Source: Myxococcales bacterium (GTDB taxonomy: Bacteria > Myxococcota > Myxococcia > Myxococcales > JAJYLH01). Taken from it: a stretch of 43,515 bases of DNA. The notes under the pieces are model-generated. The model made no database searches. It worked only from the letters and a program-made list of their open reading frames with translations, and was not told the DNA's origin. Every line of letters begins with the position of its first letter. The first letter of the stretch is position 1. This document shows positions 38,121 through 42,812 of the stretch, one piece after another. A program made the translations under genes and the position numbers. Location of the stretch: the NCBI GenBank assembly GCA_021787845.1, contig JAJYLH010000048.1:1-43515 (forward strand), given 5' to 3'.

Positions 38121-38208
38121 CGGTCGATCGTTGTAGGGCGGGACCTTATCCCATAAGCGCTGACCTATCGCCCGATTCGCTCGGATTCCCCGCGTTTCGC
38201 GCCATTCC

Positions 38209-38280
38209 GTAGGGCGGGGGCTTGTCCCCCGCCGCGATGCCGATGTCGCGGAAACGGCGGGGGACAAGCCCCCGCCCTAC
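38209..38280. repeat. Perfect 26-bp inverted repeat (GTAGGGCGGGGGCTTG family)
   Basis: The arms at 38209-38234 (GTAGGGCGGGGGCTTGTCCC...) and 38255-38280 are exact inverted copies over 26 bases, around a 20-nt loop. A partial degraded relative (GTAGGGCGGGACCTTATCCC) starts near 38134. Perfect pairing suggests a recent or conserved element. It is also able to form a strong cruciform or terminator-like stem. Confidence 0.9.
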
Positions 38281-38294
38281 GATCTTGCCGGTCA

Positions 38295-38485: not shown

Positions 38486-39874
38486 GTGTCGGTGCACGTA
38501 CTCTTGGTCAACCACCAGGCCAGCGTCACTCGCAGCCCCAACCTGGGCCTCGGGTACCTGGCTGCCGCGTTGGAGCAGGCCGGGCACGAGGTGACCGTGG
38601 CCGACGTGGCTCAGCGCCGCTGGACGCCGGCGCGCGTCCGGCGGATGGCGGTGGACCGGCGCTGGGACCTCGTCGGGATCCAGAGCTACTCGTGCGGAAT
38701 CGACGATGCCCGCCGGCTGGCGCGCTTCATCAAAGAGCGGCGTCCGGAGACCCGCATCGTCATCGGCGGGCGGCACGTGGATGCGCTCCCCGAAGAGACC
38801 CTGGCCGGCGAACGGGCTTTCGACTATGCGCTGACGGGCGAGTGCGAAGGGGCTTTGCCCGAACTCGTCGCGCGCCTCGACGATGGCGGGGCGGCGCTCG
38901 ATGAGGTCCCCAACCTGTACTACCGGCAAGGCGCGCTCGTCCAGCGCGGTCCGCACACCGCTCGGGCCGACCCGAACCATCCCGTGATGCCCGCCTGGCA
39001 CCACATCCCGCCGGCGAGCTACCCCGTCGCGCCCTTGGGGACCTTCGTCCGCGCGCTGCCCATCGCGCCCATCATCACCTCGCGCGGCTGCTCCTATCGC
39101 TGTCAGTTCTGCGCGGCGCCCTCCGCGGGACGGTCGCTTTGCCTGCGTTCACCCGAGGCGGTGCTGGAGGAGATACGTTATCTCGTCCGACATCACTCGG
39201 TGCGCGAGATCCAGATCCTCGACGACAACTTCACCTCCCGCAAGGCTCACGCCCGGGCGGTGTGCGAAGGCATCTTGAGGTCGGGCCTGAAGCTCGCACT
39301 TTCGCTTCCCAACGGGGTGCGGCTGGACCGGCTGGACGCCGAGCTGCTCGGGCTTCTCGAACGCGCCGGCTGCTACTCGGTCACCGTCGGGATCGAGTCG
39401 GGCGTCCCGCGGGTCCTGTCCGAGATGAAACGGGACGTGACCCTGGACACGGTCCGGCAGCAGCTCGATTTGATTCGGCAGGTGACCAGCATCCGGGTGA
39501 CTGGGAACTTCCTCATCGGCTTGCCGGGAGAGACGCTGGACGACATTCGGCAGACCATCGACTTCGCCTGTTCGGCGCCCCTCCACCGCGCCCAGTTCGC
39601 CGCCTTTCTCCCTCTGCCGGGCTCGCCCCTGTTCGACCGGCTGAGATCCGAGGGCAAGCTGCTCGATACCGACTTCTCGGCGCTGCGCTACGAAGCGGGG
39701 AGGTTCGCCTACGTGCCAGACGGCATGAGCGCCGGCCAGCTCAAGCGCGCGCTCTGGCGCGCCTTCCTTCGCTTCTACGGGCGCCCCGCGGTCCTGGCCG
39801 GGCTCGCGCCGGAGGTCCGAGGCGTCGGCCATCTCGGCCATCTCATGTCCCGGTTGAGGGCGAGATATTGGTGA
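38486..39874 (+). CDS. B12-binding-domain radical SAM enzyme (first)
   Basis: This protein of about 462 residues has an N-terminal cobalamin-binding Rossmann-like domain: SVHVLLVNHQASVTRSPNLGLGYLAAALEQAGHEVTVADV, then DLVGIQSYSCGIDDARRLARFIKERRPETRIVIGGRH. A radical SAM barrel follows, with the 4Fe-4S motif TSRGCSYRCQFCAAPS (Cys202, 206, 209 from the GTG start) and the later motifs IQILDDNF, VTVGIESGVPRVL and FLIGLPGETLDDI. Enzymes of this class (class B methylase-like, BchE-like) methylate or rearrange unactivated carbons; the substrate is unknown. Without a DxHxxG motif the cobalamin would be base-off without His ligation, as is usual here. A TTG at 38477 is an alternative start. The stop overlaps the next gene by 4 nt (GTGA). 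Confidence 0.88.
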   Translation: MSVHVLLVNHQASVTRSPNLGLGYLAAALEQAGHEVTVADVAQRRWTPARVRRMAVDRRWDLVGIQSYSCGIDDARRLARFIKERRPETRIVIGGRHVDALPEETLAGERAFDYALTGECEGALPELVARLDDGGAALDEVPNLYYRQGALVQRGPHTARADPNHPVMPAWHHIPPASYPVAPLGTFVRALPIAPIITSRGCSYRCQFCAAPSAGRSLCLRSPEAVLEEIRYLVRHHSVREIQILDDNFTSRKAHARAVCEGILRSGLKLALSLPNGVRLDRLDAELLGLLERAGCYSVTVGIESGVPRVLSEMKRDVTLDTVRQQLDLIRQVTSIRVTGNFLIGLPGETLDDIRQTIDFACSAPLHRAQFAAFLPLPGSPLFDRLRSEGKLLDTDFSALRYEAGRFAYVPDGMSAGQLKRALWRAFLRFYGRPAVLAGLAPEVRGVGHLGHLMSRLRARYW

Positions 39875-41406
39875 GGCGCGCTAGCGGAGGGTTGGTGCTG
39901 GCCGGGTTGCTGGCGCCGGACCTGCTCTTCGGTCCTCCGGGTCTGGCCGTGCCGCACCTCCTGCTGGTGCTCTTCCTGGTGCGAGCGACCCGGCCCCGGA
40001 CGATGGCGTGCTCGGGGCTGGGCAGGCGGGCATGGCGCGCGTTCCTGCTGGCTCTGGGCCTCGCCGGGACGCTCCTCTACCTGCCGGGATCGGTGCTGCT
40101 GACGACCTTTGATGCCCGCGTGGCGGTGTTGCTGGTGGTCGCCGCGTTCCTGATCTACGCGCTCTCGCATCCGGCGGGACCCCGCGCGTTCCGCATCACG
40201 CTGGGCCTGTTCTGCGCTTGCTCTTTCGGCTCCGTGGGCCTGTTGGCGAGCGCCTTCATCTTGCAGAACACGGAGCACCTGAAGCTGGCCCCGGCTCCGA
40301 GCCGCATGGCCGTCGGGGGATACCATCGGCCCCAGCGCCGGTACCGGTTCGCCTTTGGCGATGCCGGTCTGGTCCGCGTGTTCCTGCCCTACCGGCGTCA
40401 GGCCGAGACCTTCTCGCTTCTTCAGCCGGCGCTCCCGCCCACTCTCACCCGCTCCGGCGTCACCGCTCGCGTGGCGGCCCATTCGCCAGCGGGAACCATC
40501 ATCACGGTGGACTGGCTCGCGGGACCCCGGGTGCTGGACGCCCGGGACTTCCACACGCTTGCGGCCACGCACGTGGAGGGCGACCGGATGGAGGGCCGGC
40601 ATCACTTCGTCGGCGTGGCCTTCGATCCTCGGCGGAACCAAGTCGTCGCGGTGCAGGGTGGCTGCGGCATCCTGCGCTACTCGTTCCCGACCCTGGAGCC
40701 GGTGGGTCGCGAGACCTGCGCGGACGCGTCGTTGCGCCGAATGGCGCCCCTCTTCCTCGGCGAGCCGGTGGAGGACGCCGTCCTGACCGCGGAGGACCGG
40801 CTCATCATCACGACCTGGCCCGGATACGTGCTCGCCTATGACCTCTCCCGCGCCCGGACCACCGCCGTCACCTGGCTGCCGGGCCCCACCGGGAACGCGG
40901 TCTTGGCCCACGATGGACGGAGCATCTTCGTCTCGTCCGTCCTCACCGGACGCGTCTACCGGCTTCGGCTCCCCGATCTGGCCATCCTCGAGCGATACAC
41001 GCTCGAGCGAGGGATCCGCTACGCCACACGCGACCCGCGCAGCGACCTCCTCCTGGTGTCGAACTACTTCGACGGCGGTATCAGCGTCCTCGATCCGGCC
41101 GACGGCGATGTCGTGGCGCGCGTCACCGTGCCTCCCCGAGTCCAGTGGCTCCAGCCCTCCCCTGACGGATCTCTGCTGGTGGTGTCGCACTCCCAAGGCG
41201 TGACGCTGCTCGACCTGAAACGGCTCCTGGCCGAGCGCCCCGAAGAGAAGCCGCCGGTCACCTACCCATACTACCTTTCCCGGCCGAGTTACTTCCTCGA
41301 CTACGATCGCACCAACCTGCCTCTGAACGCGGAGACCATGCTGGCTTGGGTGCTCGCGGCGTTGGCAGTGATCTCTTTCGTTCGCCGCGAACCGGGTGTC
41401 CCGTGA
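39871..41406 (+). CDS. Polytopic membrane protein with beta-propeller domain
   Basis: This 511-residue protein starts GTG (MRRASGGLVLAGLLAPDLLFG) within the stop of the preceding gene (GTGA). The first about 130 residues hold four hydrophobic segments (about 6-36, 52-74, 79-96, 107-130). About 350 soluble residues follow that look like a WD/YVTN-type propeller: HFVGVAFDPRRNQVVAVQGGCGILRYSFPTLEPV, NAVLAHDGRSIFVSSVLTGRVYRLRLPDLAILERY, YATRDPRSDLLLVSNYFDGGISVLDPADGDVVARVTVPPRVQWLQPSPDGSLLVVSHSQGVTLLDL. A last TM (MLAWVLAALAVISFV) ends the protein. The topology would place the propeller in the periplasm. I know no named family for this combination; it may scaffold or sense for the two enzymes on either side. 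Confidence 0.8.
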   Translation: MRRASGGLVLAGLLAPDLLFGPPGLAVPHLLLVLFLVRATRPRTMACSGLGRRAWRAFLLALGLAGTLLYLPGSVLLTTFDARVAVLLVVAAFLIYALSHPAGPRAFRITLGLFCACSFGSVGLLASAFILQNTEHLKLAPAPSRMAVGGYHRPQRRYRFAFGDAGLVRVFLPYRRQAETFSLLQPALPPTLTRSGVTARVAAHSPAGTIITVDWLAGPRVLDARDFHTLAATHVEGDRMEGRHHFVGVAFDPRRNQVVAVQGGCGILRYSFPTLEPVGRETCADASLRRMAPLFLGEPVEDAVLTAEDRLIITTWPGYVLAYDLSRARTTAVTWLPGPTGNAVLAHDGRSIFVSSVLTGRVYRLRLPDLAILERYTLERGIRYATRDPRSDLLLVSNYFDGGISVLDPADGDVVARVTVPPRVQWLQPSPDGSLLVVSHSQGVTLLDLKRLLAERPEEKPPVTYPYYLSRPSYFLDYDRTNLPLNAETMLAWVLAALAVISFVRREPGVP

Positions 41407-42812
41407 CCAGAGTCCTGCTGGCGAAGATGCGTCACCGCACCTTTGGCAACGACCAGGTGGCACCACCGATGGGAGTCATGTATCTGGCCGCCACCCTCCG
41501 GAAGGCGGGCCATGAAGTCCACATCCACGACAGCGCGGTGAAGCCCGGCCGCCGCGCGTTGCTCGACGCGATCCGATCCTTCTCTCCGAACATGGTCGGC
41601 CTGAGCGCCTTGACCGTCGAGGCCGGAGCCCTCGAACGGGCCACCTCCGCCATCGCCGCTTCCTTCCCGGGCCTACCGATCATCGTCGGCGGGCCGCACG
41701 CGACCTCGTACCCCGAATGGGTCGCCCGACTTCCCGGCGTGGTGGCGGCGGTCCTCGGCGAGGGCGAATCGACCGTGGTCGAGCTGGTGCACGCCGTCTC
41801 GTGCCGCTCCGATCTCTCCGCTGTCAACGGGATCTGCTATCGGCAGGCGGACGCGACCCTGACGACGCCCGCGCGAGCGCTCATCGCGGATGTCGATTCC
41901 ATCCCCTGGCCCGCCTGGGATCTGGTGGATGTCGCCGCCTACAGCCGGCTGAGCCACATGGCCGAGGTCGGCGGCGAACGGTACGCCACTATCCTCACCT
42001 CTCGCGGCTGCGCCTACGACTGCGCCTACTGCCACAACATCATGGGCCGGCGATTCCGAGCCCGGAGCCCGGCGAGCGTGATGGCCGAGCTGGAGCACCT
42101 GGTCCGAGAGTTGTCGGTGCGAAACATCCTGGTGCTGGACGACGCCTTCAACCTCGACCGGCGGCGTGCCGGGGAGATCCTCGAGTGGGTGGCCGAGAGC
42201 GGATGGAGACTCGAGCTCGCCTTCCCGAACGGAGTGCGAGCCGATCTCTTGGACGACGACTTGGTCTCGCGGTTCCATCGAGCCGGCACCGTACACCTGG
42301 CGATCGCCGTGGAGACGGCCAGCCCGCGCTTGCAGACATCCATCGGCAGGCGCTTGGACCTGGACCGGGTCCAACGGGTGATATCGGCGGCGGCCCGACG
42401 GAGAATCTACACCACCGGCTTCTTCATGCTGGGCTTCCCCGGTGAAACGGCGGAGGAGATGCGGTCCACGGTCGACTACGCCGTGCGCAGCGAGCTCCAC
42501 CAGGCGCTCTTCTTCCTCGTCACCCTTTACGGAGGTACGCGGCTGTACCAGATGGCGCGCGAGGCCACGCCTGCGCTCGTCGCGCGGGAGCCCTCGTTCG
42601 AGTCCATGAACTACTTCCAGGCCAGCCGCGGGATGAGCGCGGTCTCGAACCGGGAGCTGCTACGCATGCAGAGGAATGCCTTCCGGCGATTCTACCTGGA
42701 CCCGGCACGGGTGGCGCGCATCGTCCGGGACCATCCCAATCGAAGGCGCCTCCCGCTGCAGGGCCTGCGAGTGCTGCATCGCCTCCTGCCCCGGTTCGAG
42801 CGCGACGACTGA
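41403..42812 (+). CDS. B12-binding-domain radical SAM enzyme (second)
   Basis: This 469-residue protein is related to the first radical SAM enzyme of this operon but clearly diverged. The B12-binding N-terminal domain reads TRVLLAKMRHRTFGNDQVAPPMGVMYLAATLRKAGHEVHIHDSAVKPG, then NMVGLSALTVEAGALERATSAIAASFPGLPIIVGGPHATSYPE. The cluster motif is TSRGCAYDCAYCHNIMG (Cys203, 207, 210), followed by RNILVLDDAFNLDRRRAGEIL, VHLAIAVETASPRLQ and FFMLGFPGETAEEM. The GTG start overlaps the stop of the membrane-propeller gene by 4 nt, so all three genes are translationally chained. Likely chemistry is radical methylation or ring formation on a hydrophobic substrate; the product is not known. Confidence 0.88.
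   Translation: MTRVLLAKMRHRTFGNDQVAPPMGVMYLAATLRKAGHEVHIHDSAVKPGRRALLDAIRSFSPNMVGLSALTVEAGALERATSAIAASFPGLPIIVGGPHATSYPEWVARLPGVVAAVLGEGESTVVELVHAVSCRSDLSAVNGICYRQADATLTTPARALIADVDSIPWPAWDLVDVAAYSRLSHMAEVGGERYATILTSRGCAYDCAYCHNIMGRRFRARSPASVMAELEHLVRELSVRNILVLDDAFNLDRRRAGEILEWVAESGWRLELAFPNGVRADLLDDDLVSRFHRAGTVHLAIAVETASPRLQTSIGRRLDLDRVQRVISAAARRRIYTTGFFMLGFPGETAEEMRSTVDYAVRSELHQALFFLVTLYGGTRLYQMAREATPALVAREPSFESMNYFQASRGMSAVSNRELLRMQRNAFRRFYLDPARVARIVRDHPNRRRLPLQGLRVLHRLLPRFERDD

Follow-up and report, generated by a model that had tools for sequence, protein, structure and literature searches.

Two B12-binding radical SAM enzymes flank a membrane-anchored propeller protein in a myxobacterial gene trio: a candidate operon for lipid-linked sugar tailoring

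The stretch of DNA analysed here (the window; 43,515 nucleotides) is an entire contig, and carries near its end three intact open reading frames, here called A, B and C, on the same strand. The trio spans positions 38486-42812, and both of its junctions are 4-nt GTGA overlaps (Table 1). The contig ends 703 bp past gene C, which limits the downstream context. The GC content at the three codon positions (0.71/0.49/0.87 in A, 0.71/0.51/0.86 in B and 0.68/0.49/0.86 in C) indicates that the three frames are coding and did not arise by chance. An earlier note on this DNA had reported the linked genes with their overlaps, and both the reading frames and the two overlaps were located as described. The note had also read the overlaps as a sign of tightly matched stoichiometry; they suggest translational coupling, but do not show stoichiometry.

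Two features of the surrounding sequence can be recorded here. The third-position GC of the trio (0.86-0.87) is slightly below that of four neighbouring genes (0.90-0.95), possibly as a result of transfer. About 205 bp before gene A lies a 74-bp hairpin with a 27-bp stem (window 38208-38281, z -9.7), the 22-bp arm of which has 21 exact occurrences in the window's genome, partly as inverted pairs; we read this hairpin as an interspersed palindromic repeat.

Table 1. Genes and features of the A-B-C trio, in window coordinates
Feature	Position	Strand	Description	Basis
Gene A	38486..39874	+	462 aa, GTG start; B12-binding and radical SAM enzyme	Pfam matches, predicted structure
CxxxCxxC motif of A	39089..39112	+	CSYRCQFC	Read from sequence; alignment
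GTGA overlap A/B	39871..39874	+	Start-stop overlap	Read from sequence
Gene B	39871..41406	+	511 aa, GTG start; polytopic membrane protein with a propeller and a helix at the C terminus	
N-terminal transmembrane bundle of B	39880..40278	+	Approximately residues 4-136	Hydropathy, positive-inside count; helices in low-confidence model
Beta-propeller of B	40468..41214	+	Approximately residues 200-448, ends SQGVTLLDL	Model pLDDT ~50-90; terminal motif common to other TM-propeller proteins
C-terminal transmembrane helix of B	41329..41382	+	Residues 487-504	Structure model
GTGA overlap B/C	41403..41406	+	Start-stop overlap	Read from sequence
Gene C	41403..42812	+	469 aa, GTG start; B12-binding and radical SAM enzyme	Pfam matches, C clade in trees
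CxxxCxxC motif of C	42009..42032	+	CAYDCAYC	Read from sequence

The products of the two outer genes matched the Pfam models for B12-binding (74.5 bits for A, 88.1 bits for C) and Radical_SAM (81.7 and 76.7 bits, respectively), in all cases far over the gathering scores. Together with the CxxxCxxC motif present in each, these matches (PF02310 and PF04055) place both proteins among the B12-binding radical SAM enzymes, and the three cysteines of the A motif are invariant across a 24-sequence alignment of A. The two proteins share 33% identity and fall into separate clades, in agreement with the earlier description of two divergent enzymes. Judged from their sequences, A and C are intact enzymes of the B12-binding radical SAM type, with cobalamin use predicted; the lower-face residues differ among known B12-dependent radical SAM enzymes (PMC13331322).

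The predicted structure of A is confident (pLDDT 89.7), and the structures closest to it are AprD4, MgmA, CysS, OxsB and TsrM. AprD4, the radical SAM 1,2-diol dehydratase of the apramycin pathway, which acts on a sugar, is the top structural match (Z 32.9, 406 aligned residues, rmsd 2.8) and also the best PDB sequence match for both A and C. Despite this strong match in fold, AprD4 differs at the level of sequence (23% identity), its NCBIfam cut-off of 500 bits being far from the scores of A (72.2 bits) and C (93.2 bits), and we know of no membrane-linked operon that contains AprD4. Neither A nor C reached any equivalog cut-off in the NCBIfam scan. The top match there for A was HpnJ (152.8 bits; 117.8 bits for C; cut-off 577.6), and for C it was BchE, the anaerobic Mg-protoporphyrin cyclase (161.8 bits; 129.5 bits for A; cut-off 481.35). 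HpnJ is a radical SAM enzyme that acts behind a glycosyltransferase on the glucosamine headgroup of hopanoids, a glycolipid (PMC12583986). We rejected a hopanoid as the substrate of the trio, because the window's genome, which is 98% complete, gave no match to squalene-hopene cyclase (TIGR01507) at E <= 0.001.

The product of gene B combines an N-terminal transmembrane (TM) bundle, a beta-propeller and one C-terminal TM helix, an arrangement that the earlier note had recognized, albeit with about four N-terminal helices and a propeller of about 350 residues. In the structure model the propeller comprises only about 250 residues. That model was built from four sequences, and its TM part (pLDDT < 50) leaves the N-terminal region unreliable. 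Five N-terminal helices give a better reading than four, with lysine plus arginine counts of 2, 0, 4, 0, 2 in the loops; helices one and two make a short hairpin that turns at GPPG. Several relatives of B show the same alternation of loop charge, from which the propeller should face outward, and it probably lies outside the cytoplasm. A and C must be cytosolic; the charge pattern thus speaks against a membrane-held enzyme pair, as had been suggested, in which the propeller does the holding.

No Pfam family scored above its cut-off for B, the PQQ_2 and BamB propellers reaching 16 bits against a gathering score of 27.6. A Foldseek search with the model returned WD40 propellers such as G-beta, a likeness that says nothing about function. 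Searched as a single sequence, B had no relative in the genome-contig collection and none in plasmids, and a phylum-level search gave only weak propeller matches. Matches of low score to the profile of B were confined to the propeller and were set aside as probably generic propellers. The architecture of B does fit a group that we call TM-propeller proteins, with an N-terminal TM bundle and a C-terminal propeller that ends in a G-[VIL] motif; this is a grouping of the present analysis, with homology for the propeller part only and TM parts that lack a confident alignment. Some of these relatives have a closing disulfide between a cysteine after the TM bundle and a terminal CG[VI], which is absent from B.

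Genes for TM-propeller proteins were found in six genomes: that of the window (three genes), G165, G166, G167, G220 and the deltaproteobacterial genome G234. Of the two further copies in the window's genome (G000:C24; L080 and L174), one lies beside a B12 radical SAM gene and the other near a family 2 glycosyltransferase (GT2) gene. G234 (L212, L214, L220 and L221) has at least 23 copies, some of them in tandem. A genome-wide test in G234 placed five of its 23 TM-propeller genes no more than 2 kb from a B12-binding gene, where at most 5.5% would be expected (p 0.007); outside G234 proximity is biased, since several of the copies came to light through inspection of the surroundings of radical SAM genes.

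A phylogeny built from 84 radical SAM proteins assigns A to a 25-row clade (support 98/94) that covers at least ten phyla, and C to a small clade that is mostly myxobacterial and deltaproteobacterial. The A-B-C gene order was not found elsewhere in the genomes searched. Relatives of A and C do occur together, in G166, in L101 (where the C-A order is repeated) and in L123 (where an A-like gene lies between two C genes). The earlier note had held that absence of the middle protein beside homologous radical SAM pairs would refute its reading, and here the outcome was divided. Most A homologues have no middle protein beside them, and this applies to the closest pair (L087 and L119, with neither B nor C nearby and a phosphomannomutase gene near). 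Of the 40 genomes that contain A relatives, just four gave a full-length TM-propeller match, G234 being counted through its many propeller matches, whose TM bundles were seen separately. On the other side, G166 repeats the B-C order, with an enzyme next to its TM-propeller gene that joins the wider C group in a smaller tree (99.5/99), and both G234 and G220 have genes of the B type that adjoin a member of the A clade.

Genes immediately next to the A clade are most often sugar genes (GT2, GT-C, epimerases and phosphomannomutase). A GT2 gene lies directly upstream of A in five loci, four from Omnitrophota (L095, L098, L102 and L104) and one from G234, whereas none of the 31 further radical SAM genes at these loci has one there; the contrast is partly circular, as the GT2 profile itself derives from the same five. 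The scanned GT2 proteins rank closest to polyprenyl-phosphate glycosyltransferase families, and for those of L102 and G234 the best solved relative is dolichol-phosphate mannose synthase. GT-C proteins of the PMT_2 type adjoin A relatives in L090, L091, L093, L095 and L112.

Tentatively, and with somewhat less than even confidence, we propose that the operon tailors a lipid-linked sugar of the cell envelope, the best fit among the readings when judged by gene association in other genomes. This proposal draws on the spread of the A clade over at least ten phyla, on the GT2, PMT_2 GT-C and phosphomannomutase neighbours, on the structural match to AprD4 and on HpnJ as best NCBIfam match, as well as on the neighbouring A and C relatives, the B-C order in G166 and the proximity test in G234. 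In the cytosol, A and C would modify the sugar headgroup of a glycolipid, polyprenyl-phosphate-linked or similar, acting in sequence or at adjacent positions, by deoxygenation, ring change or C-methylation. At the inner membrane's outer face, the predicted site of its propeller, B would take up or position their product; this role of B is the weakest step. Against the proposal stand the lack of a glycosyltransferase within the operon itself (the contig stops soon after C), the closest A homologues, the few genomes with a TM-propeller match and the many TM-propeller genes of G234 that lie away from B12 genes.

Alternatively, the target of A and C could be the hydrocarbon portion of some unusual membrane lipid, an isoprenoid or other chain, rather than a sugar, with B helping to place or sense the lipid. 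One G166 contig (G166:C41; L073 and L074) has over ten genes of the B12 radical SAM type; there a side-by-side C-A pair stands in a row of radical SAM genes, accompanied by genes for UbiA, a CrtI-like oxidoreductase, GT2 and PMT-like proteins. A UbiA prenyltransferase gene also adjoins a C relative in G107, and UbiA makes up 3 of the 62 neighbours of the A clade. In favour of this alternative, too, a ladderane synthase is known among the non-methylating Cbl radical SAM enzymes, along with BchE and HpnJ (PMC13142503). The predominance of sugar genes beside the A clade argues the other way, and we regard this alternative as rather unlikely. The lipid-like or envelope target suggested by the earlier note gains only indirect support, from the polyprenyl-phosphate glycosyltransferase, PMT_2 GT-C, UbiA and CrtI-like genes beside the relatives.

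The trio could also be a loose operon: A and C would then work in other pathways, while B, as one copy of an expanded family of envelope proteins, has a task of its own. About three quarters of the TM-propeller genes in G234 lie away from B12 genes, for which reason B may have a wider role, and A often occurs without B or C. The two GTGA overlaps, the recurrence of A-C and B-C neighbourhoods in other genomes and the second TM-propeller gene that adjoins a B12 radical SAM gene in the window's genome weigh against such an arrangement, which we likewise consider fairly improbable. B12 radical SAM enzymes modify peptides in RiPP pathways, and ApyD and similar RiPP enzymes show distant similarity to those of the trio in the NCBIfam scan, but modification of a peptide or envelope protein is very unlikely here, given the sugar and lipid genes found as neighbours elsewhere and the lack of an evident precursor gene beside the trio in the list of open reading frames.

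Returning to the tailoring of a lipid-linked sugar, no system with this layout was found in the literature searched, in accord with the earlier note, although coverage of subscription journals was poor and this is weak evidence of novelty. To our knowledge, a substrate has been assigned to only a small number of B12-type radical SAM enzymes. It is possible, if doubtful, that a membrane family with an outer propeller and no Pfam model works with B12-type radical SAM enzymes in making and placing a lipid-linked sugar, or a lipid, of the bacterial envelope that has yet to be described. The A clade, spread over at least ten phyla and partly beside polyprenyl-phosphate glycosyltransferases, would offer a substrate class open to testing, with the TM-propeller proteins representing a new link of radical chemistry to the cell envelope.
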